From: Methanosarcina sp. DH2
GTDB taxonomy: Archaea > Halobacteriota > Methanosarcinia > Methanosarcinales > Methanosarcinaceae
Direction: 5' to 3'
DNA: 64,000 nucleotides
Assembly (NCBI RefSeq): GCF_020804225.1
Contig: NZ_WJBI01000005.1
Coordinates: 133,623 to 197,622 of the forward strand
Part shown: one piece after another, positions 25,109 to 48,095 of the stretch
How the letters are laid out: each line of letters opens with the position of its first letter
Position numbering within the stretch: the first letter of the stretch is position 1
The notes under the pieces: generated by a model
What the model was told of the DNA's origin: nothing
Database searches by the model: none
Seen by the model: the letters and a program-made list of their open reading frames with translations, nothing else
Made by a program: the position numbers and the translations under genes

Positions 25109-25417
25109 TCATTCGAAAAGCTTCTTTATATCATCCATTGAGAGAGAAACATCAAATTCTTTAAGCTTGAAAAACTTCTTTGCTCGCATATCATCGTCTT
25201 CGAGCCTGAGGTCGCTTTCAACAAATCCGGCTTTTTCCAGGCGTTTTAAATGCAGGTTTACTACCTGTCTCGAGAGGTCCAGATCCTTGGCGAGCTCGTA
25301 TACATACCTCTCTCTCTCAGCCAGCAGGTAAAGTAGTTTTAGCCTTACAGGATGGGAGAGGGCTTCGCCAATTTCCACTATTTGCTGAAGTGATTTTTCC
25401 ACCTGGTGCACCCTCAT
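25109..25417 (-). CDS. ArsR-type winged-helix transcriptional regulator
   Basis: The 102-residue protein has a winged-helix pattern: ALSHPVRLKLLYLLAERERY, then the recognition helix in LAKDLDLSRQVVNLHLKRLE and the wing KAGFVESDLRLE. There are no metal-binding Cys residues, so this is not a classic metal sensor. It follows the 75-residue membrane protein in the same direction with a 58-base gap. It may regulate this small envelope cluster. The dyad at 26530-26555 is one candidate site. Confidence 0.85.
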   Translation of the reverse strand: MRVHQVEKSLQQIVEIGEALSHPVRLKLLYLLAERERYVYELAKDLDLSRQVVNLHLKRLEKAGFVESDLRLEDDDMRAKKFFKLKEFDVSLSMDDIKKLFE

Positions 25418-25475
25418 TATTATATAATTTCCTGATCTGGAATAATCCTGGAAGTCATTTCAAGGATATTAAGTT

Positions 25476-25703
25476 TCAGATTTCTTCCAGTTTGGATTTT
25501 ATATCTTCAACTGTTTTTTTGATTTCTTCAATGTCTTTTTCAATCTTAACAAGCCGCTCGTTATCTTTGGGAGCCGTATAACCTGCCCTATTAAGCATTA
25601 CTATGACTACGCCTACAATGAGAAGGATAACAAGAAGGTTCAGGAAAAAGCCCCAGAAAGAGCCATACCCCATGCCGTACCCCATACCATTCAAACCATT
25701 CAC
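25476..25703 (-). CDS. Small membrane protein with coiled-coil tail
   Basis: The 75-residue protein has a Gly/Met/Tyr-rich N-terminus (MNGLNGMGYGMGYGSFWG), one transmembrane helix (LNLLVILLIVGVVIVML) and a heptad-patterned tail (LVKIEKDIEEIKKTVEDIKS). It is probably transcribed with the ArsR-type gene downstream. The arrangement resembles small SHOCT-like envelope proteins, but the function is unknown. Confidence 0.7.
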   Translation of the reverse strand: MNGLNGMGYGMGYGSFWGFFLNLLVILLIVGVVIVMLNRAGYTAPKDNERLVKIEKDIEEIKKTVEDIKSKLEEI

Positions 25704-25988
25704 CTCGCGGAAACCAGATTTTTTATTTTATCCGTTTCTTATCCGTTTTCTTATCTGTTTTCTTATCTGTTTTCTTATCCGTTAATTCTTATCCGTTTTT
25801 CATACTTTTTTCCTTATTCTATCGATTCTCCTCAGATACTGATTTCAACCATAATTATAAAAAATGTCCGCTAGAGGGAGTCTGATATATAAAGATGAAT
25901 ATAAATATACGAAAAACTTAAGGAGCAACCTGAGGGGTTAAACCTGAGAGGTTAAAACAAATAAAAAAGGATGGTTTATGGTCGGAGT
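25704..25988. other. Intergenic with short AT-rich repeats
   Basis: TTATC(T/C)GTTTTC is repeated four or five times at about 25730-25800. No gene was seen. Confidence 0.5.
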
Positions 25989-26468
25989 TTAGTTGCCATA
26001 TCCCATACAGTATCCGGGGCCTCGAGCATATCCGGAACCACGGGCAAACCTGCCGCTTGTCTGAGGTCCTGCAGGAACGCTGTATCCGGTAAATACCTCA
26101 CCGGTCACTGCATCAATTCTTGCCTGCGTGTAAACTCCGCTTTCATCCTCATAATAGACAATCCACCAGCGGCCCATCTGATATATGTCATCCTTGGAAA
26201 CGTCATCATCAATTTCTGCCCTGGCTATTTCGAAAGCCTCATCTATGGTTTCAACTTCAAGTTCTACGGTTTCATCTGCGTTGTAGTAAGGGCAATAAGA
26301 GAAATTGCCTGCACTATACCCTGAGTCTGTATATCTGGCAGCCCACCTGTGCATGGGTCCAGAGCCGTAGTTCCTTGCATCATCCGAAGCAACTGCACTG
26401 ACAACAAATGCCCCGAATGTGCCTATTAGCAGTAGGCCCAGGAGAATTGATATTATACTTTTCTTCAT
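25989..26468 (-). CDS. Secreted PepSY-like protein
   Basis: The 159-residue protein has a signal peptide (IISILLGLLLIGTFGAFVV, cleavage near SAVAS). The central domain has TVELEVETIDEAFEIARAEI, WWIVYYEDESGVYTQARIDA and VTGEVF, the pattern of PepSY/YpeB-type domains that may inhibit peptidases or bind ligands. The C-terminus is Gly/Tyr/Arg-rich (YARGPGYCMGYGN), echoing the Gly/Tyr/Met-rich start of the 75-residue neighbour. The dyad 62-87 bases upstream of its start suggests repressor control. Confidence 0.75.
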   Translation of the reverse strand: MKKSIISILLGLLLIGTFGAFVVSAVASDDARNYGSGPMHRWAARYTDSGYSAGNFSYCPYYNADETVELEVETIDEAFEIARAEIDDDVSKDDIYQMGRWWIVYYEDESGVYTQARIDAVTGEVFTGYSVPAGPQTSGRFARGSGYARGPGYCMGYGN

Positions 26469-26529
26469 TTTTTCACCCTCAATTTTTTACTTTCTTTTCC
26501 CGATCTACCTGAGTAGACCGTACTCGCAC

Positions 26530-26555
26530 CATATGTAGTATAATCACTACATATG
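26530..26555. promoter_or_regulatory. Candidate operator, perfect 10-bp inverted repeat
   Basis: CATATGTAGT at 26530-26539 and ACTACATATG at 26546-26555 are exact complements around a 6-base spacer. The site lies 62 bases upstream of the PepSY-like gene. The spacing suits a dimeric winged-helix regulator such as the ArsR-type protein encoded 1.1 kb to the left. The assignment to that regulator is inference. Confidence 0.6.
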
Positions 26556-26610
26556 TAGTCCTTATACGGATATATAATTTACGATCACTACTGCTATTTT
26601 TTCTTGAAAT

Positions 26611-27282
26611 TTAGCGGTACTTCTCATTTAACCATCCAATGAGTGGCGGAACCCAGCAGAGATTTGCAGCAATAGTCTCAAGGGCTGTGAAAGTCTGTGT
26701 TGTAGGGCTGAAACCCATAATTCTTGCTCCAAGCAATCCAAGCGGGACAATTGTGATTACAAAAAGACTTGCCAGCATAACCGGGTGATGGACATATCTG
26801 GAAAAGCCGGCTCTCCATGACCCTTCGGCACGTTTGAGGAAGAGCATGCCTGAAATATTGGCTCCTATCTGATCACTGAGGGCATAGAAATATGGAATGT
26901 AGAAGCCTTCAACTCCATAAACATCGACCCCAGCCAGCCGGCTCCCGAAGTCGATTATCCAGGGAAAGGCAATCCCGAAGAACTTACCCCAGCCGTAGGC
27001 TTCTGCCATGCTCCCTTCAGCCTTCCTGAGGCGCTGACGGATAGAAAAGATCCCTTCAAAAATGCTCTCCCCTTCCCCTGCAAGAGTCCTGACAAGCCAC
27101 TGCCCCACAGGGCTCCGCTGGTAGCCCTGAAAGTCCAGAAAAATCCCTGCAAGAAGTCCTAAAACATATCCTGGAATTGTATACTTTATAAGTTCGGAGA
27201 ACTCTTCGCCTTCTTCAGGAAATTCTCCCTCCGGGAATTTTTCAGGAGATTCTTCAGAAAACTCTTCATTTTTTACGCCCAT
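26611..27282 (-). CDS. Hypothetical membrane protein
   Basis: The 223-residue protein has a Glu-rich N-terminus and hydrophobic segments near residues 33-50 ([18 protein letters not shown]), 100-115, and 165-190 ([19 protein letters not shown]). No catalytic motif or known family is recognised. It may belong to the small envelope cluster to its left. Confidence 0.65.
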
Positions 27283-34173: not shown

Positions 34174-34422
34174 ATGGTAAAAAATGATAAAAAAGAACCG
34201 TACCCTGTTATCAATATTCTGGAATGCAAGGCATGTGGGCGCTGTCTTCTTGCCTGCCCGAAGGAAGTGCTTTTCATGAGTGAGAGCCTGAACGCGCGGG
34301 GTTACCATTACATAGAGTATAAAGGAGAAGGCTGCTCAGGCTGTGCAAGCTGCTATTATACCTGCCCTGAGCCCCTGGCACTGGAAATCCATATTCCCCT
34401 GAAAGAGGAGGAAGCCGAATAA
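34174..34422 (+). CDS. 2-oxoacid:ferredoxin oxidoreductase, ferredoxin (delta) subunit
   Basis: The 82-residue protein has two 4Fe-4S motifs, [15 protein letters not shown] and [14 protein letters not shown]. It is the small iron-sulfur subunit that passes electrons from the TPP subunit to ferredoxin. It is the first gene of a three-gene operon, 22 bases before the alpha subunit, with GGAGG before that gene's ATG. Confidence 0.9.
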
Positions 34423-34444
34423 GGCAGGATAAGGAGGAAAAAAG

Positions 34445-35500
34445 ATGGCAACACAACTCGTAAAAGGTAACTCTGCAGTAATCGTCGGCGCACTCTATGC
34501 CGGCTGTGACTGTTTCTTTGGATACCCCATTACTCCGGCAAGTGAGATCCTGCACGATGCTTCCAGTTACTTCCCGAAAATTGGCAGGAAATTTGTTCAG
34601 GCTGAATCTGAGGAAGCTGCAATCAACATGGTCTATGGAGGGGCATCGGCCGGGCACAGGGTCATGACATCCTCTTCAGGTCCCGGAATTAGCCTGATGC
34701 AGGAGGGAGTTTCTTACCTTGCAGGTGCAGAACTTCCCTGTGTGCTTATAGATGTCATGAGGGCAGGTCCAGGGCTTGGAAACATCGGGCCCGAACAGGC
34801 AGACTACAACCAGGTCGTAAAAGGTGGAGGGCACGGAAATTACAGGGCCATTGTACTTGCTCCCAATTCAGTGCAGGAAATGTGTGACTTTACCATGAAA
34901 GCTTTTGATCTGGCTTTCAAATATAGGAACCCTGCAGTCGTGCTTGCTGACGGAGTGCTCGGGCAAATGATCGAGTCCCTGGAGTTCCCTGATAAAGCCC
35001 TTACCCCGGAAACCGACACCAGCTGGGCGGTCAATGGGACAGCAGAAACCAGAGCCAATCTTATAACTTCAATCTTCCTGGACTTCAACGAACTAGGAAT
35101 GTTCAATGAGAAACTGCAGGCAAAGTACGAGCTGATAAAGCAGAATGAGGTAGATTACGAAGAACACATGACCGAAGATGCCTCAATAGTGCTTGTCTCT
35201 TATGGCATAAGCAGCAGGATCTGCAGGTCAGCAGTGGATCTTGCCAGGCAGGAAGGAATTAAAGTAGGGCTTTTCAGGCCAAAGACACTTTTCCCATTCC
35301 CTGAAGCGCAGTTGAAAACCCTTGCTGATAAGGGATGCTCTTTCATCTCCGTTGAGATGAGCAACGGGCAGATGATAGACGACATTAGACTTGCTATCAG
35401 CTGTTCACGGCCTGTGGAACTGGTAAACCGCATGGGAGGAAACCTGATAACCCTCGACCAGATTATGGACAAAATCAGAAAAGTTGCAGGGGAGGCATGA
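34445..35500 (+). CDS. vorB: 2-oxoacid:ferredoxin oxidoreductase alpha subunit (Vor-type)
   Basis: The 351-residue protein starts with [20 protein letters not shown] and [10 protein letters not shown], the pyrimidine-binding domain of the 2-oxoacid:ferredoxin oxidoreductase alpha subunit. It continues with [32 protein letters not shown] and [20 protein letters not shown]. The C-terminal transketolase-C-like domain includes VSYGISSRI. The operon order and length fit the valine-type (Vor) enzyme rather than pyruvate. Kor (2-oxoglutarate) cannot be excluded by eye. The stop overlaps an ATG of the next gene (ATGA). Confidence 0.85.
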
Positions 35501-35502
35501 AA

Positions 35503-36948
35503 ATGGCAGCAGAAATCACCAACGGAGAAAAGGTTATCAGAAAGCCAAAAGCCCTGTACACGGACTATCCGCGCAAAGGAGGAGCAGCCTCAACTGCCAC
35601 TCACTACTGCCCAGGCTGCGGACACGGGGTTTTGCACAAGCTTATCGCTGAAGCAATTGATGACCTCGGAATCCAGGACAGGACAGTTATGATTAGCCCT
35701 GTGGGCTGTGCAGTCTTTGCTTATTATTACTTTGACGCAGGCAATATCCAGGTAGCTCACGGCCGTGCCCCTGCAGTTGGGACAGGCGTCTCAAGGGCTG
35801 AAGAAAATGCTGTGGTCATCTCCTACCAGGGTGACGGAGACCTTGCTTCAATCGGCCTGAACGAGACTCTGCAGGCAGCAAACAGGGGGGAAAAACTGGC
35901 AGTCTTTTTCGTAAATAATACCGTGTACGGTATGACAGGCGGACAGATGGCTCCTACGACCCTTATAGGGGAAAAGACAACTACGACTCCTGAAGGCCGT
36001 GACCCCCGTTTTGCAGGCTACCCGCTGCACATGTGTGAACTCATATCCAACCTGAAAGCTCCTGTATTCATCGAAAGGGTTTCGGTTTCGGATATCTCTC
36101 ATATAAGGAAAGCCAGAAAAGCTATCAGGAAAGCGATGGAGATCCAGCGCGATGGCAAAGGCTATGCCTTTGTGGAAGTCCTTGCCGCCTGCCCGACAAA
36201 TTTGAGGATGGATGCCGAACAGGCTGTAAAGTTCATTAACGAAGAAATGGAATCGGAATTCCCGCTTAAGAACTTCAGGGATAACTCTGCAGAAGCCGAA
36301 ATCCTTCACAGGGGCGTAAGCGACTTCACAACGGAAGCCCTGGAAAAACTTTACGGGATTGAATCCGGAGCTGAGGAAAAACCTTCCAGGACCGACTTTG
36401 CCCCGATCCAGACCAAGATTGCAGGTTTCGGAGGGCAGGGAGTCCTGAGCATGGGCATTATCCTTGCACAGGCAGGAGTAAAAGCAAACCTCAATGCTTC
36501 ATGGTTCCCTTCATACGGCCCGGAACAGCGCGGAGGAACCTCGAACTGTTCGGTCGTGATTTCAGGTCAGTCCATAGGCTCTCCTACAGTCTATACCCCT
36601 GACATCCTTGTAGCCATGAATCGTCCTTCCCTTGAAAGGTTTGAAGGAGCGGTAAGAAAAGGAGGTTTTATCCTCTATGACTCGACCATAGGCGAAGCCG
36701 AGACTCCAGCAGGCGTAAAAGCCGTTGCGGTTCCGGCAACCGAAAAAGCCAAGGAAGCAGGCGATGAGAGAGCTGCAAATTCCTTTATGCTCGGTGCTTT
36801 GCTGGGGCTAAATGCAACCGGACTTGAAGAAGAAGCCTTCAAAGAAGCTCTTGCCGAAAATTTCGCAGGCAAACCCAAAGTCATTGAGTTCAATCAACAG
36901 GTGCTTGAAGCCGGTGCAAAATGGGCAAGAGAGAACTTTAAGGTATGA
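35503..36948 (+). CDS. vorA: Fused beta (TPP) and gamma subunits of Vor-type 2-oxoacid:ferredoxin oxidoreductase
   Basis: Residues 1-~290 are the TPP-binding beta subunit: [58 protein letters not shown] and [16 protein letters not shown]. Residues ~305-481 are the gamma subunit ([38 protein letters not shown]). The two are separate genes in many archaea. ATG at 35503 is preferred over the overlapping ATG at 35497 because the GGGGAGG site ends only one base before the latter. The complex interconverts a branched 2-oxoacid plus CoA and acyl-CoA plus CO2 with ferredoxin. In methanogens the reductive direction serves amino acid synthesis. Confidence 0.88.
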
Positions 36949-37262: not shown

Positions 37263-37565
37263 CAACTTGTGTTGCATGCTTTTTTATCTTCTCTTTACAC
37301 AGGGCAGAGTCTTAATAGGAGCCATAGCTGGAAAGTTACAGCTGGAAAGTTGCAGCTGAAAAGCCCCATGCTGAAAAGCCCCATGCTGAAATAAAGGATT
37401 GCTTACAGCTGCGGATGCACTAATTAAAGAAAATCAGAGATTTAGGAACGGTCATAAGGTTTATTTAAAATAAAGACATTATAAAAAAGAGTTAGGCTTA
37501 CTGAAAATTAATTTGAAAGTAATTGTGTTTGAGAATTAAGTTAAAAATCAATTATTAATTTAGAA

Positions 37566-37655
37566 GTAGATGGTAGGGTTCGAGTCCCTATTCTCGAGAT
37601 CCCTACCTGCGATCCAACCCTGGATTGAGAGGAAACCCTATTACTCTCAATCTAC
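37566..37655 (+). ncRNA. 90-nt structured repeat element, copy A
   Basis: Closing stem GTAGAT/ATCTAC; hairpin 1 GGTAGGG/CCCTACC with inner TCGAG/CTCGA; hairpin 2 TTGAGAG/CTCTCAA with loop GAAACCCTATTA. Within hairpin 1 an alternative fold, TAGGG-TTCGAGT-CCCTA, is a perfect 5-bp, 7-nt tRNA T-arm. A TATA-like ACATTATAAAAAAG lies 87 bases upstream of the core and an AAAAAAGTTTTTG run lies 40 bases downstream. Four copies in 4 kb, each exactly 90 nt. Strand is set by the order of these promoter- and terminator-like signals and is inferred. Confidence 0.6.
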
Positions 37656-38102
37656 ACACTCATAATGGCATGGAGATATATATCATAACCGATTCAAAAA
37701 AGTTTTTGTAATCTTAAATTTATCTGGATTACATATTTTTATCGTCACTAAAACTTTTAATGGCATTGAAATCTTTTCCATTAATTATTATAAATTTCAA
37801 TGTATTAATTTAGTTTATATCTACAAAGATCTCCTTTAATCGATTCGCAATTTCTCCTGGAAAGTAACAAACCCAGAAACAGGACCTCAAGAGTGAGAAC
37901 TTTTATTCTTAGACGTTTGGGTGAGAGGCAAACTCAGAGAATCTGTAATCTTTGAGGTAGCTTCTTTTAACATATTCGCCATGAATATCCGTTCAGCTAG
38001 ATACAATAATCAGGTTAGTATAAACTAATGTGGAATGATAAGGTTTATTAAAAATAAAGACATTATAAAAAAGTGAGATTCAATCTCAAAATTAGTTTAG
38101 AA

Positions 38103-38192
38103 GTAGATGGTAGAGTTCGAGTCCCTATTCTCGATGTCCCTACCTGCGATCCAACCCTGGATTGAGAGGAAACCCTAATACTCTCAATCTAC
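38103..38192 (+). ncRNA. 90-nt structured repeat element, copy B
   Basis: Differs from copy D at four positions in the core (GGTAGAG, CTCGATG and TAATA changes). The 7-bp stem of hairpin 1 gains one A-C mismatch. The TATA-like ACATTATAAAAAAG lies only 40 bases upstream because of a ~47-bp deletion. The downstream flank matches copy D for about 90 bases and ends in AAAAAACTTTTTTT. Confidence 0.6.
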
Positions 38193-38712
38193 TATCTTTT
38201 ATAACGATCCGGTAATATATCCTAACCGGCCCAAAAAACTTTTTTTAATTCAAATTGTTAAATTGGATATACACTTTTGTTATGATTAAATTTTTAATCT
38301 CGCTATAATCCTGATTTAATTATAAAAATAGGATTATTATATTATCTTTGATTATTATATTATCTTTATAAATATTAAGTTTTTAATCCAAAGTTTTCGA
38401 GCCTAACTTATATTAGAATTTCCGATATTATTAAATATGAAAAATATGCTATTTAATATAGATTTTATATGGCCTGATCGCTGTATCAGATCTATCTGGG
38501 GAATGAAGGAGCTTGAGGATTACCGATATTTTTTTAATTGCAGTTATAGTGTAAAGTTAGTACATGTTATGGAACCGGTGGATATAATCAGTGATAAGGG
38601 CAAATCCGGGCATAATTACATGGAACTCAGGACATAATCATAGAGAGCAAATCCTCATTCTCAGTTTTTTCTCCGGGAAATTTCTACGGAAATAACAAAA
38701 GAGGGATTTATA

Positions 38713-39831
38713 TTGATTAAGATAACATGGGTTGGGATAACAACATTAATTTTAATGTTGTTTTTAACAGCATTAGTTGCAACTGCTTCAGCAGAAGAAG
38801 TTCAACTGAGTCCGGAAGAGGAACTAGGGAAGCTTCTATACTTTGATACAGAGCTATCAACACCCAGGGGGCAGTCCTGTGCAAGTTGCCATGATCCTGA
38901 ATTTGGTTTTGCTGAGCCTCATCAAAATCTTCCAGTTTCACAGGGAGTACTGCCAAACATGTTCGGAAATCGAAACTCACCAAGTGCCGCATATGCGTCT
39001 TATAGCCCGGATTTCAGTTATACATATGATGACGAGGGCCAGATACTCTATTCTGGAGGCCAGTTCTGGGACGGCAGGGCAGACAATCTGATCGAGCAGG
39101 CGAAAGGCCCATTCCTGAACCCTCTGGAAATGCATAACCCGAATAAAATAACTGTAATCCAGAACATCCGGATTTCAGATTATGCAGGTCTCTTTGAAGA
39201 AGTCTACGGACCGGGTGCCCTGGATAATGTAGATACAGCTTATGATTATACAGCTGAAGCGATTGCAGCTTACGAAAGTTCTGCGGAAGTAAATAAGTTC
39301 AGTTCCAGATACGATAAATATCTTGCAGGAGAGTACACCCTATCAGAAGAAGAAAAATTGGGACTTGATCTATTTAATGAAAAAGCCCTGTGTTCAGAGT
39401 GCCATCCAAGCAGTGGGAATGAACCGGTATTTACGGACTTCACGTATGACAACCTGGGTGTGCCCAGAAATCCAGATAACCTGTTTTATAGTTTGCCAAA
39501 AGCATTCAACCCTCAGAAGAGTGCATATATAGACCTTGGGCTGGGTGGCAACGGCCGTACTGAGATAGTTACTCCAGAGAATGAAGAGGGAAAAATGAAA
39601 GTCCCTACTCTGCGAAACATTGGGAAAACGGCCCCTTATACGCATAATGGATATTTCGATAGTCTCGAAGAACTTGTACGCTTCTATAATACGAGAGATG
39701 TGGAGTCAGAGGGATGGCCAGCTCCTGAAGTTGCTGCGAACGTTAATACCGAAGAACTGGGCAACCTCGAACTTAGTGATGCCGAAGAAAAAGCAATTGT
39801 TGCCTTCTTGAGGACGCTGGATGATGAGTAA
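38713..39831 (+). CDS. Exported di-haem cytochrome c peroxidase / MauG-like protein
   Basis: The 372-residue protein has a signal peptide (TLILMLFLTALVATASA). Two c-type haem sites follow, CASCH (C56, C59, H60) and CSECH (C227, C230, H231), in the CcpA/MauG domain arrangement, with FGNRNSPSAAYA and PTLRNIGKTAPYTHNGYF. The family reduces peroxide or oxidises protein residues outside the cytoplasmic membrane. Start may be the TTG at 38713; no ATG precedes the hydrophobic core closely. It stands alone between copies B and C of the 90-nt element. Such enzymes are uncommon in methanogens, and transfer from bacteria is plausible. Confidence 0.88.
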   Translation: MIKITWVGITTLILMLFLTALVATASAEEVQLSPEEELGKLLYFDTELSTPRGQSCASCHDPEFGFAEPHQNLPVSQGVLPNMFGNRNSPSAAYASYSPDFSYTYDDEGQILYSGGQFWDGRADNLIEQAKGPFLNPLEMHNPNKITVIQNIRISDYAGLFEEVYGPGALDNVDTAYDYTAEAIAAYESSAEVNKFSSRYDKYLAGEYTLSEEEKLGLDLFNEKALCSECHPSSGNEPVFTDFTYDNLGVPRNPDNLFYSLPKAFNPQKSAYIDLGLGGNGRTEIVTPENEEGKMKVPTLRNIGKTAPYTHNGYFDSLEELVRFYNTRDVESEGWPAPEVAANVNTEELGNLELSDAEEKAIVAFLRTLDDE

Positions 39832-40445
39832 TCGGAAAAAAAGTATATGCAGAACGGTTGGAACGGCATAATTTGCATCACTAATTCTTGCCTTTGCTAA
39901 AAAGTGAGTTACATAGCCTTCCTTACATATGTCCTGCAAAAGTAAAAGAAAATATTCCTATATAGTTTACTTTAAAGGAAATAATTCCTGAAGGAAATAA
40001 TTCCTGAAGGAAATAATTCCTGAAGGAAACGAGCAGGCTCGAGGAATTTTCGTAATTTAGCCAATTTTCTATCCAGACCAGAACGGTTTTGTCGAGCCTG
40101 AACATAATTTTTTGTATTTTACCTGTCCCTTACCTGTGTAAAGTTATATTAAGGCATTAAGGCACCTGAAAGAAACAAACTCCAGGATTATTGACTAAAT
40201 TCAAATTAAATATACTAACTATTGGATTATCCAGCACCTCTGTTGTCAAGTATGTCTAATGCACCTGAATTTTATAGTATGATAGCAATCATAACCTTTA
40301 TCTAACTTCGGAACATTATAAAAAAGAATTGACGATATATAAAAATAATTGAAAAGTAAATGTTCGATAAAAGACATTTTTTAATAAAATAGGAAATAGT
40401 AGTTAAAGGATAATTAATGTTAAAAAATGATTATTTGATCCAGAA

Positions 40446-40535
40446 GTAGTTGGTAGGGTTCGAGTCCCTATTCTCGAGGTCCCTACCTGCGATCCAACCC
40501 TGGACTGAGAGGAAACCCTATTACTCTCAATCTAC
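40446..40535 (+). ncRNA. 90-nt structured repeat element, copy C
   Basis: The core differs from copy D at only two positions (GTAGTT in the closing stem, GGACTG in hairpin 2), although the flanks have largely diverged. The same TATA-like sequence (ACATTATAAAAAAG) sits 130 bases upstream. Conservation confined to the core points to constraint on the 90 nt. Confidence 0.6.
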
Positions 40536-41156: not shown

Positions 41157-41272
41157 GTCATAAGGTTTATTTAAAATAAAGACATTATAAAAAAGAATTA
41201 GGCTTACTGAAAATTAATTTGAAAGTAATTACGTTTTGAGAATTAAGTTAAAAATCAATTATTAATTTAGAA

Positions 41273-41362
41273 GTAGATGGTAGGGTTCGAGTCCCTATTC
41301 TCGAGGTCCCTACCTGCGATCCAACCCTGGATTGAGAGGAAACCCTATTACTCTCAATCTAC
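41273..41362 (+). ncRNA. 90-nt structured repeat element, copy D
   Basis: The reference copy: its core carries all pairings described for copy A with no mismatch in the closing stem or hairpins. The upstream flank (41150-41272) is nearly identical to that of copy A; the downstream flank matches copy B, ending AAAAAACCTTTTTT. It is therefore a mosaic of the two. Confidence 0.6.
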
Positions 41363-41749: not shown

Positions 41750-42922
41750 TCAGATAATGTAGGATTTGAGAGGCGGAAAACCGTTAAAATTCACGGAACT
41801 ATAACTCTGGGTGTAAGCTCCGGTTGTGAAGATATATACACGATTGCCTTCTCTCATTGTATGGGGAAAGGAATACTTATGGTGCTCATAAAGGATGTCC
41901 ATGCTGTCGCACGTGGGACCTGCAAGGATGACCTCTTCTGCACAGCCTTTTTTATCACAGAAAATCGGATATTTTATGCACTCGTCAAGGGTTTCTATAA
42001 GCCCGCCGAACTTTCCGATATCTAGATAGACCCATTTGTACTGGTTAAACCTGGCTTTTTTAGAGATCATAACAACTTCGCTTACGATTATGCCGGCATC
42101 GGCGACCAGAGACCGACCTGGCTCGATAAGGATCTCAGGAAGCTCTTCTCCGAAGTCATCATGTAGAAAGCGGCGGATTTCCCGGGCATATGTCTCAAGG
42201 TCATGAGCCTGAGCCTGGTATTTTGCAGGAAAACCCCCACCAAGGTTGATCATTTTCAGCCGGATTCCTTTTTCAGCCACTGCTTCAAAAAGATATTTGC
42301 ACTTGGAAATTGCATTGTCCCATTGCCCGATATCCCTTTGCTGGGAACCTACGTGAAAAGAAAGTCCATAAGGCTCAAGCCCAAGCTTTTCGGCTTTTAG
42401 AATCAATTTGTATATCAGGTCAGGGTGGGAGCCGAATTTTCTGGAAAGTGGCCAGTCAGCGCCGTCACTTTCTGTAAGGATCCTAAAAAAAACCCTGGAA
42501 CCCGGAGCTCTTCTTGACAGCTTCTTTAAATCACTCTCAGAATCCGTAACAAAGAGCCTTACTCCGTTCTCATAGGCATAAGCTATGTCCATTTCTTTTT
42601 TGATCGTATTGCCGTAACTTATCCTCTCAGGCTCTACCCCGAGCCTTAGCAGTTGATCAAGTTCGTAGACCGTTGCCACATCAAAACTGGAACCTTTTTT
42701 CTTCAGGGCGAGCACTACCTTATCCATAGGATTAGCCTTAACAGCATAATGAATTTTTGCAAAAGGCATATGCTCTACCAGTTCGTCGTAACTTCGCTCT
42801 ATCTTTTGAAGATCAACGATCAAAAACGGTGTTTCTTTATCCCGCGAGAATTTTTTAATTTTATTAAACTCCTCTCTTGAAATATAATCTTCCAGCGGGA
42901 ACTCATAAGGCTCTTTTCTCAT
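41750..42922 (-). CDS. PLP-dependent ornithine/lysine/diaminopimelate-type decarboxylase (fold III)
   Basis: The 390-residue protein has the alanine-racemase-fold decarboxylase motifs: HYAVKANP with the PLP Lys62, SFHVGSQQ near 200, NLGGGFPAKY near 228, EPGRSLVADAG near 270 and GPTCDSMDILYEH near 348. The last motif supplies the dimer-interface Cys and Asp. The length and GPTCDS pattern resemble eukaryotic-type ornithine decarboxylase rather than diaminopimelate decarboxylase. The likely product is putrescine or cadaverine for polyamine synthesis. No operon partner is adjacent; the specificity call is tentative. Confidence 0.85.
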   Translation of the reverse strand: MRKEPYEFPLEDYISREEFNKIKKFSRDKETPFLIVDLQKIERSYDELVEHMPFAKIHYAVKANPMDKVVLALKKKGSSFDVATVYELDQLLRLGVEPERISYGNTIKKEMDIAYAYENGVRLFVTDSESDLKKLSRRAPGSRVFFRILTESDGADWPLSRKFGSHPDLIYKLILKAEKLGLEPYGLSFHVGSQQRDIGQWDNAISKCKYLFEAVAEKGIRLKMINLGGGFPAKYQAQAHDLETYAREIRRFLHDDFGEELPEILIEPGRSLVADAGIIVSEVVMISKKARFNQYKWVYLDIGKFGGLIETLDECIKYPIFCDKKGCAEEVILAGPTCDSMDILYEHHKYSFPHTMREGNRVYIFTTGAYTQSYSSVNFNGFPPLKSYII

Positions 42923-46913: not shown

Positions 46914-48095
46914 TTAATCCTTCATTTTTTGAGCAAGTTGCATGCCAATCTCCTCAACTTTTTTCAGGTCTTCCATTCTTGGCTTGCCTTTAACCTGGAG
47001 GGTTCCCACAACCTCCATTTTCGAAGGAGTGAGGATATCTCCTGCCTGCCTCAATGCACCTCCTCCCCAGCCAAATGACCCGAGAACAACTCCATACCTG
47101 GCCGGGGGGTTGAGCGCTTTTACAAGGTAAGTGCCGTAAAGGGCAAGCGGGTGCATGCCTGCAAGGACTGTAGGGGCTCCAAGGATAATGGCTCGCGAAT
47201 CAACCAGTTCTCTGGCAACATCCCCTATGTCTGAGACTGTAAGGTCATACATTCTAACATCTACACCTTCTTTTAGCAGAGTCTCTGCGATTGTATTGAC
47301 CATCTCCCTGGTAGAGCCCCACATGCTCACATAGACAATAAGAGCTTTATTTTCAGTTTCTCCTGCAGTCCATTTCGCGTAGGGTTCAAGTATTCGCTCC
47401 GGGTTTTTGTAAATCGGCCCGTGGCTCGGGGCAATAATTTCGATATCAAGATCCTTTATCTTTTCAAGAGCTTTTGCCCCCATTTTCCCGAAAGGCATCA
47501 TGATCTCACCATAGTAGCGTTTTGCCAGAGGAATAAGGTCATCCAGGTCTTCGTCATACACCCCCTGGGCAGTATGGGCTCCGAAAAAGTCACACGGGAA
47601 AAGGACCCTATCTTCAGGCAGGTATGTGAACATAGTTTCAGGCCAGTGGAGCCAGGGTGCTTCTATAAAGCGGAGAGTCTTTCCTCCCAGGTCAAGGCTA
47701 TCTCCTTCGGCAACAACCTTTATTCGACCTTCAGGCAGCTCATGATAGAGGCTTGCCATTTTTACTCCTCTCTCAGTCGTGACAAGCACGGAGTTCGGAG
47801 CCCTATCCATGATATAACGAATTGCACTGGCATGATCAGGTTCTGCATGATTCATGATCAGATAGTCCAGTTTTTCCAGGTTGGAAACAAGATTTATTTT
47901 TTCTTCAAATTCCTCTTCAAAGCCGGGATTCACGGTATCAATGAGAACTGTTTTCTCTTCCCCTTTCACAAGGTAAGCGTTATAGCTTGTCCCCTGAGGC
48001 AGAGGAATCAAAGCATCAAACATTCTGCGGTTCCAGTCCTTTGCCCCAACCCAGAACACGTTCTGGGCTATTTCAGGAATATTATAATTTTCCAT
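46914..48095 (-). CDS. fprA: F420H2 oxidase-type A-flavoprotein (FprA)
   Basis: The 393-residue protein has a metallo-beta-lactamase-type di-iron domain with H83-x-E85-x-D87-H88 in NHAEPDHA, plus later His ligands in APWLHWPETM and APSHGPIY. A flavodoxin domain from about residue 250 follows (IVYVSMWGSTREMVNTIAET). In methanogens FprA reduces O2 to water with F420H2, an oxygen-defence reaction. It is a single cytoplasmic gene. A GAGAGGGGA ribosome-binding site lies about 9 bases before the ATG. Confidence 0.93.
   Translation of the reverse strand: MENYNIPEIAQNVFWVGAKDWNRRMFDALIPLPQGTSYNAYLVKGEEKTVLIDTVNPGFEEEFEEKINLVSNLEKLDYLIMNHAEPDHASAIRYIMDRAPNSVLVTTERGVKMASLYHELPEGRIKVVAEGDSLDLGGKTLRFIEAPWLHWPETMFTYLPEDRVLFPCDFFGAHTAQGVYDEDLDDLIPLAKRYYGEIMMPFGKMGAKALEKIKDLDIEIIAPSHGPIYKNPERILEPYAKWTAGETENKALIVYVSMWGSTREMVNTIAETLLKEGVDVRMYDLTVSDIGDVARELVDSRAIILGAPTVLAGMHPLALYGTYLVKALNPPARYGVVLGSFGWGGGALRQAGDILTPSKMEVVGTLQVKGKPRMEDLKKVEEIGMQLAQKMKD

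Follow-up and report, generated by a model that had tools for sequence, protein, structure and literature searches.

A gene for a predicted MauG-type dihaem peroxidase lies within an array of structured RNA elements in Methanosarcina

The locus and its peroxidase gene

We analysed 64,000 nucleotides of Methanosarcina sp. DH2 (contig NZ_WJBI01000005.1, positions 133,623 to 197,622), hereafter the window, in whose numbering all coordinates are given unless a locus is named. Between the genes for a 2-oxoacid:ferredoxin oxidoreductase (vorDBA) and an Orn/DAP/Arg decarboxylase-like protein (OrnDC) lie copies of a structured RNA element and, among them, a gene for a dihaem peroxidase (Table 1). Our covariance model R2 finds four copies of about 95 nt, all on the forward strand, and places the peroxidase gene 520 nt after copy 2 and 609 nt before copy 3, as a first-pass annotation of this DNA had described when it reported repeat elements on both sides.

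Table 1. Features of the peroxidase locus in the window
Feature	Position	Strand	Basis and remarks
2-oxoacid:ferredoxin oxidoreductase genes (vorDBA), left array anchor	34174..36948	+	Synteny; two larger subunits by Pfam
Structured RNA element, copy 1	37561-37655	+	Covariance model, 112.8 bits
Structured RNA element, copy 2, nearest on the 5' side of the peroxidase gene	38098-38192	+	Covariance model, 105.8 bits
Shine-Dalgarno-like AGAGGG	38700..38705	+	Ends 7 nt 5' of TTG; alignment, putative function
MauG-type dihaem cytochrome c peroxidase gene	38713..39831	+	372 aa, TTG start; Pfam, NCBIfam and PDB matches
Putative Sec-type signal peptide or anchor, MIKITWVGITTLILMLFLTALVATASA	38713..38793	+	N-terminus read by eye
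First haem site CASCH, His60	38878..38892	+	Predicted five-coordinate peroxidatic haem (MauG His35 homologue)
Second haem site CSECH, His231	39391..39405	+	Six-coordinate haem, with Tyr325 equivalent to MauG Tyr294
Structured RNA element, copy 3, nearest on the 3' side of the peroxidase gene	40441-40535	+	Covariance model, 105.6 bits
Structured RNA element, copy 4	41268-41362	+	Covariance model, 112.4 bits
Orn/DAP/Arg decarboxylase-like gene (OrnDC), right array anchor	41750..42922	-	Synteny; domain search

The peroxidase reading frame fills its interval exactly and is uninterrupted by stops. Its product matches the Pfam profile CCP_MauG (PF03150) over residues 36–208 (E = 1.6e-41) and Cytochrom_C towards the C terminus (residues 225–369, E = 7.9e-06), and it carries two CxxCH motifs, at residues 56–60 and 227–231. 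The profile match and paired haem motifs place the intact protein in the CCP_MauG superfamily, in line with its initial description as a dihaem MauG/CcpA-family protein. It is the sole homologue within its own genome. The gene had also been called isolated, and it is: every other open reading frame of at least 80 aa between copies 2 and 3 merely overlaps it, and the neighbouring reading frames include no candidate partner gene adjoining it.

No ATG or GTG stands in frame between the upstream stop codon and the putative signal peptide, and the GAGGG motif ends 7 nt before the TTG, which upholds the proposed TTG start. Three orthologues introduced below (in genomes G007, G001 and G011) have a GGGGGA-like stretch aligned with the AGAGGG of the window and, behind this G-rich motif, a CTG (loci L002, L003 and L004, respectively) at the position of the TTG. 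Judged from the alignment, this CTG is a possible start codon in all three archaeal genes; an ATG at codon 5 is present in the G007 and G001 orthologues and absent from the window and G011.

The first-pass annotation noted that such a protein requires attachment of c-type haem, and the genome encodes two proteins above the cut-off for Cytochrom_C_asm (PF01578). CcmH had no match in the genome (the control search was positive in 4 of 14). This combination agrees with the published archaeal Ccm system, which, in the accessible part of PMC9084895, is shown in M. acetivorans and described as lacking CcmH throughout the archaea.

A predicted active site of the MauG type

Among solved relatives, MauG chains rank highest (E = 4e-57), followed by BthA (3.5e-47) and the cytochrome c551 peroxidases (best 8.3e-26). 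The second of these values belongs to the Burkholderia structure PDB 6nx0, which we take to be BthA. MauG of Paracoccus denitrificans (PDB 3l4m) gives a full-length match (residues 38–371, E = 2.3e-56), and the likeness extends to both CxxCH sites and to the equivalents of MauG Trp93, Gln103, Pro107, Glu113 and Tyr294. Unlike the situation in MauG, no methylamine genes were recognised beside the Methanosarcina sp. DH2 gene, and the position of MauG Trp199 is aligned with a Lys, adjoining a one-residue gap in the first alignment. In MauG, this Trp forms the contact to preMADH.

Across 100 aligned rows, the two CxxCH sites are conserved in 99 and 100, and the equivalents of Gln103, Pro107, Glu113 and Tyr294 in 99, 99, 100 and 100, respectively. 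The inter-haem Trp (Trp93 in MauG, Trp119 here) is present in 85 of the 100 rows, including every one of the 17 that make up the two tree groups with Methanosarcina proteins (12 + 5). In the available sections of PMC6405878, the six-coordinate haem is ligated by Met and His in classical bacterial dihaem cytochrome c peroxidases (bCCPs) and by Tyr and His in MauG; Tyr325 of our protein stands at the MauG Tyr294 position, which is Tyr in every row, unlike a classical bCCP. The same sections give Ser at the inter-haem position of BthA, as against Trp119 here. The protein thus has, at the sequence level, the Tyr–His haem, the Trp between the haems and the Gln/Pro/Glu distal pocket of MauG. Given this ligation pattern and the conservation of the MauG residue equivalents, the predicted active site is of the MauG type and not that of a classical cytochrome c peroxidase.

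Assignment to a named subfamily is a separate matter. The best NCBIfam family is MbnH (TIGR04039; E = 8.2e-39, residues 37–372), which scores 133.6 bits and does not reach its cut-off of 362.85; MauG (TIGR03791), at 96 bits, likewise falls short of its 443.85. With scores this far below both cut-offs, the protein by its profile matches fits no named subfamily, and we file it under neither MauG nor MbnH. The profiles for MbnP (PF20243) and the methylamine dehydrogenase small subunit (PF02975) matched nowhere in the genome, and their control searches also matched nowhere.

A two-hairpin RNA family

To describe the elements flanking the gene, we aligned 67 distinct complete or near-complete copies, after dropping 9 of 76 distinct pieces as fragments. 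In this alignment two hairpins comprise 22 pairs, 94.0% of whose cells are paired, and sliding the partners lowers the paired cells to 33–51%. Nine pairs change on both sides, compared with a shuffled mean of 5.2 (none of 500 shuffles reached nine), and covariation scores 0.161, compared with 0.100 for shuffled alignments (again none of 500 as high), with the reservations that the 22-pair structure was taken from the same alignment on which it was scored and that the shuffles ignore relatedness. The number of further pair types is unremarkable (21 against a shuffled 19.3, with 73 of 500 shuffles as high). The consensus that RNAalifold itself proposes comprises only 12 pairs at -1.49 kcal/mol; model R1, which was built on it, was set aside and the 22-pair structure was read from the alignment instead. 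Each of the four window copies folds more stably than its shuffled sequence (z of -2.8 to -4.3).

The hairpin loops and linker are C-rich, with CCCUAU-like stretches and CCAACCC. TATA-like stretches, located by eye, lie at differing distances from the four window copies. Within the window every Rfam 15 family stays below its gathering score; a tRNA identity was rejected, with cmscan giving 22.3 bits for two copies against a gathering score of 29 and ARAGORN reporting no tRNA. Of the 185 genomes of the order, 33 carry a match to model R2: 27 of 30 in Methanosarcina (26 with 4–11 matches each and G023 with one) and six from two other genera of the family. The genus-wide occurrence and the covarying pairs together mark the predicted elements as a genus-wide RNA and not a chance repeat. 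We found no published description of the element, PMC11456600 included; subscription papers lay outside the scope of this search, so we do not call the element unpublished. Compared with the peroxidase, the RNA is the more novel object: its two hairpins covary, and it matches no Rfam 15 family.

The array locus across Methanosarcina

We compared 18 loci, the window and those of 17 of the 29 other Methanosarcina genomes, chosen by their RNA or peroxidase matches and hence not a random sample. RNA elements follow vorA in 16 of the 18; the other two (G008 and G012), with RNA but without vorA beside it, were not counted as arrays. Twelve of these 16 arrays contain no peroxidase gene. The remaining three besides the window, in G007, G001 and G011, hold orthologues with 77–83% identity to the window protein. 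The vorA–OrnDC gap is 4.8 kb in both measured loci with the peroxidase (those of the window genome, G000, and of G007) and 1.8–2.6 kb in eight of ten measured loci without it; in G001 and G011 only the vorA side was seen, OrnDC lying beyond the stretch examined. Gap size alone is no proof of insertion, as enlarged gaps also occur without the peroxidase, of 8.5 kb in G010 and 3.7 kb in G021.

The G010 array (L134:2440-8720) holds other open reading frames, which by eye encode putative SipW-dependent exported proteins and signal peptidases. Since these lie between two RNA copies, the array site seems to accept differing cargo. In G035, which belongs to another genus, RNA copies flank OrnDC on both sides. 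Two putative IS110-type transposase reading frames with nearly the same start, also recognised by eye, were seen at L130:8484-9728 and L133:2855-4099; they lie near the array-linked peroxidase gene in G001 and near the second peroxidase gene, described below, in G010.

Distribution and phylogeny of the peroxidase

Homologues of the peroxidase occur in 7 of 30 genomes of the genus, 11 of 111 of the family and 28 of 185 of the order, the last count including two genomes (G108 and G164) with fragment matches only. A 2021 survey counted fewer among Methanosarcinales, with CcP in 5 of 132 genomes and MauG in 1 of 132 according to the available text (PMC8351635); our homology criterion is broader. 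Within Methanosarcina the proteins form two groups, one array-linked (the window, G007, G001 and G011) and a second with 55–57% identity to the window protein (G001, G010, G021 and G026). G001 carries both, about 17 kb apart: its array-linked copy is 77% identical to the window protein, and its other copy, located elsewhere, 57%. From gene order we take the array-linked copy of G001 to be MA2908 of M. acetivorans C2A.

The accessible part of Holmes 2019 (PMC6703419) describes MA2908 and MA2925 of M. acetivorans as MauG/CcpA homologues with two haems and a predicted membrane location, neither of them differentially expressed with AQDS; of the cytochrome deletions reported there, only that of mmcA was inhibitory. 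In the corresponding part of a 2022 paper (PMC10989991), methane production from iron was unaffected by deleting MA2908 or MA2925. No peroxide phenotype of the deletions is described in the available portions of either paper. The initial expectation that such an enzyme would be surprising in a methanogen thus does not hold, both genes having already been described and deleted: MauG-type proteins are known in the genus, and the peroxidase is ordinary for Methanosarcina.

We placed the proteins in a quick tree of 100 rows, for which the bacterial rows came from the best 80 of 457 loci. Rows from contigs already present were dropped (L019, L020, L022, L023, L037, L087 and L088), as were L001 (the window itself), the partial L152, L168 and L169, and further pieces without a locus in G155, G167, G179 and others. 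The four array-linked proteins form one clade (support 100, starred), which sits inside a Methanosarcinales clade of 12 rows (92.8, unstarred and thus indecisive). The second Methanosarcina group stands apart, with L160, a contig of an ANME-2 metagenome-assembled genome. Holding all eight Methanosarcina rows together was disfavoured (p-AU = 0.0353, from a test on the quick tree with the group chosen once the tree was known), and the second group looks separately acquired on this phylogeny, a joint archaeal origin of that group and the 12-row clade being conceivable. Four changes between bacteria and archaea are required by the tree, at least three of them by starred branches. That the family is mainly bacterial, as first suggested, was judged right, and a 2015 survey, in the sections available to us (PMC4429474), likewise proposes transfer from bacteria for the MauG-type peroxidases of haloarchaea and Methanosarcinales.

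In a species tree of 16 genomes from five array-side proteins, the four array-linked carriers fall in a six-genome clade with G009 and G010. Presence of the gene requires three changes on this tree; one gain and two losses make the simplest story, not a proof, and other histories fit as well. In G075 (region L194:6538-10002), the MauG gene has a membrane-protein gene on one side and, on the other, a gene for a secreted protein whose PepSY match stays below threshold; an ArsR-type regulator comes next. Homologues of these three neighbours lie in the window at 25109-27282, about 11 kb from its peroxidase gene.

Origin and function of the enzyme

We think it probable that the gene encodes a surface or membrane-anchored, H2O2-using MauG-type dihaem enzyme and was placed late into an older RNA array. 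The first-pass annotation had pictured the gene as if carried with the elements, and in its strongest form this would make the two one mobile or functional unit, with the RNA as vehicle or regulator. The gene does lie between two copies in the window, and at least one copy adjoins it in the three other array-linked genomes; the same elements, however, occupy the same place without the gene in the 12 arrays described above, and G010 has quite different reading frames between copies of the same array. The converse of the same-locus comparison that the annotation had proposed, elements in place with the gene missing, is the common state among the arrays examined. Its other suggested check, co-occurrence, showed no association: among 185 genomes of the order, 6 have both, 22 only the peroxidase, 27 only the RNA and 130 neither (Fisher p = 0.60), in a search whose RNA filters were stricter and some of whose genomes are incomplete, so that some negatives may be false. 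Put differently, 22 of 28 peroxidase genomes lack an RNA match and 27 of 33 RNA genomes lack the peroxidase. The counts within the genus (6, 1, 21 and 2, in the same order) give p = 1.0. Synteny and co-occurrence together reject the elements as the vehicle of the peroxidase, and we regard a single unit of gene and RNA as highly improbable. With elements that follow vorA mostly without a peroxidase, and with no association in the counts, the array is most simply read as older than the peroxidase that it contains. Inheritance from a Methanosarcina ancestor followed by loss in most species would explain why related proteins exist in two other genera of Methanosarcinaceae as well as in another family of the order, and why the G075 gene lies among homologues of the window genes at 25109-27282. 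Against it, none of the ten array genomes examined outside the six-genome clade holds the gene in its array, so that many losses would be required, and we consider vertical descent unlikely. In the late-placement reading that we prefer, a mainly bacterial family would have entered Methanosarcinales probably more than once, and the array-linked gene would have been placed, within a single Methanosarcina clade, into the existing vorA–OrnDC small-RNA array, some members of the clade losing it afterwards.

As for its working, the product would be exported by the Sec route and receive its haems outside the membrane from the archaeal Ccm system. H2O2 may then bind the His60 haem, in a pocket formed by Glu139, Gln129 and Pro133, and, in analogy to MauG, Trp119 could relay oxidising equivalents to the His231/Tyr325 haem, giving a bis-Fe(IV)-like state. 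These equivalents might go into the reduction of H2O2, a donor on the cell surface supplying the electrons, or into the oxidation of a partner protein. The latter would make the product a MbnH- or MauG-like modifying enzyme that, instead of removing peroxide, spends H2O2 on oxidising a residue in a secreted partner, perhaps one that binds metal. The Tyr at the axial-ligand position and the inter-haem Trp are in keeping with such chemistry, as is MbnH being the best NCBIfam match, and a gene resembling that for nicotianamine synthase (PF03059) adjoins the second-group gene in all four of its genomes, a metal hint for the paralogue. The NCBIfam scores nevertheless stay under their cut-offs, the array-linked copy has no adjoining candidate for a partner gene, and Tyr–His ligation also goes with plain H2O2 turnover in BthA, as reported in the available part of PMC6405878, so protein modification is a possible but doubtful role for the window enzyme. 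Because the BthA case makes Tyr–His ligation compatible with turnover and no partner gene adjoins, we modestly favour removal of peroxide traces as the likelier role on present sequence evidence.

The nicotianamine-synthase-like gene lies directly 5' of the second-group peroxidase gene (L131:7217-8074 and L131:8430-9635, respectively), and likewise in G010, G021 and G026, with only a piece of it matched in G026. This neighbourhood suggests a metal-related role for the second-group paralogue; our literature search found no paper linking nicotianamine synthase with Methanosarcina. In the most far-reaching picture, a strict anaerobe carries a surface peroxidase whose bis-Fe(IV) dihaem centre uses H2O2 for modifying a metal-handling protein, with the paralogue linked to the nicotianamine-synthase-like gene as a second branch; the array, for its part, would be a regulatory RNA family, multicopy and undescribed, that Methanosarcina shares with two near genera and that pairs with mRNAs through its C-rich loops. 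In its entirety we hold this to be decidedly improbable.

An oxidative-stress role, which the annotation had proposed in addition to that of a nearby FprA, is plausible for the predicted enzyme. The protein encoded at 46914-48095 on the reverse strand combines ODP beta-lactamase and flavodoxin domains, as would be expected for FprA, and its proximity therefore stands. The pairing with the peroxidase reduces to neighbourhood, as FprA remains beside OrnDC and APC in relatives without the peroxidase.

Implications for Methanosarcina

The RNA array merits study in its own right: 26 of 30 Methanosarcina genomes have 4–11 matches each, and Rfam gave none for the copies in the window. For the peroxidase, the gain lies in its history, with two groups in the genus of which one is placed in the RNA array, and in the assignment of its active site; a predicted MauG-type active site points to an assay for the existing MA2908 and MA2925 deletion strains.
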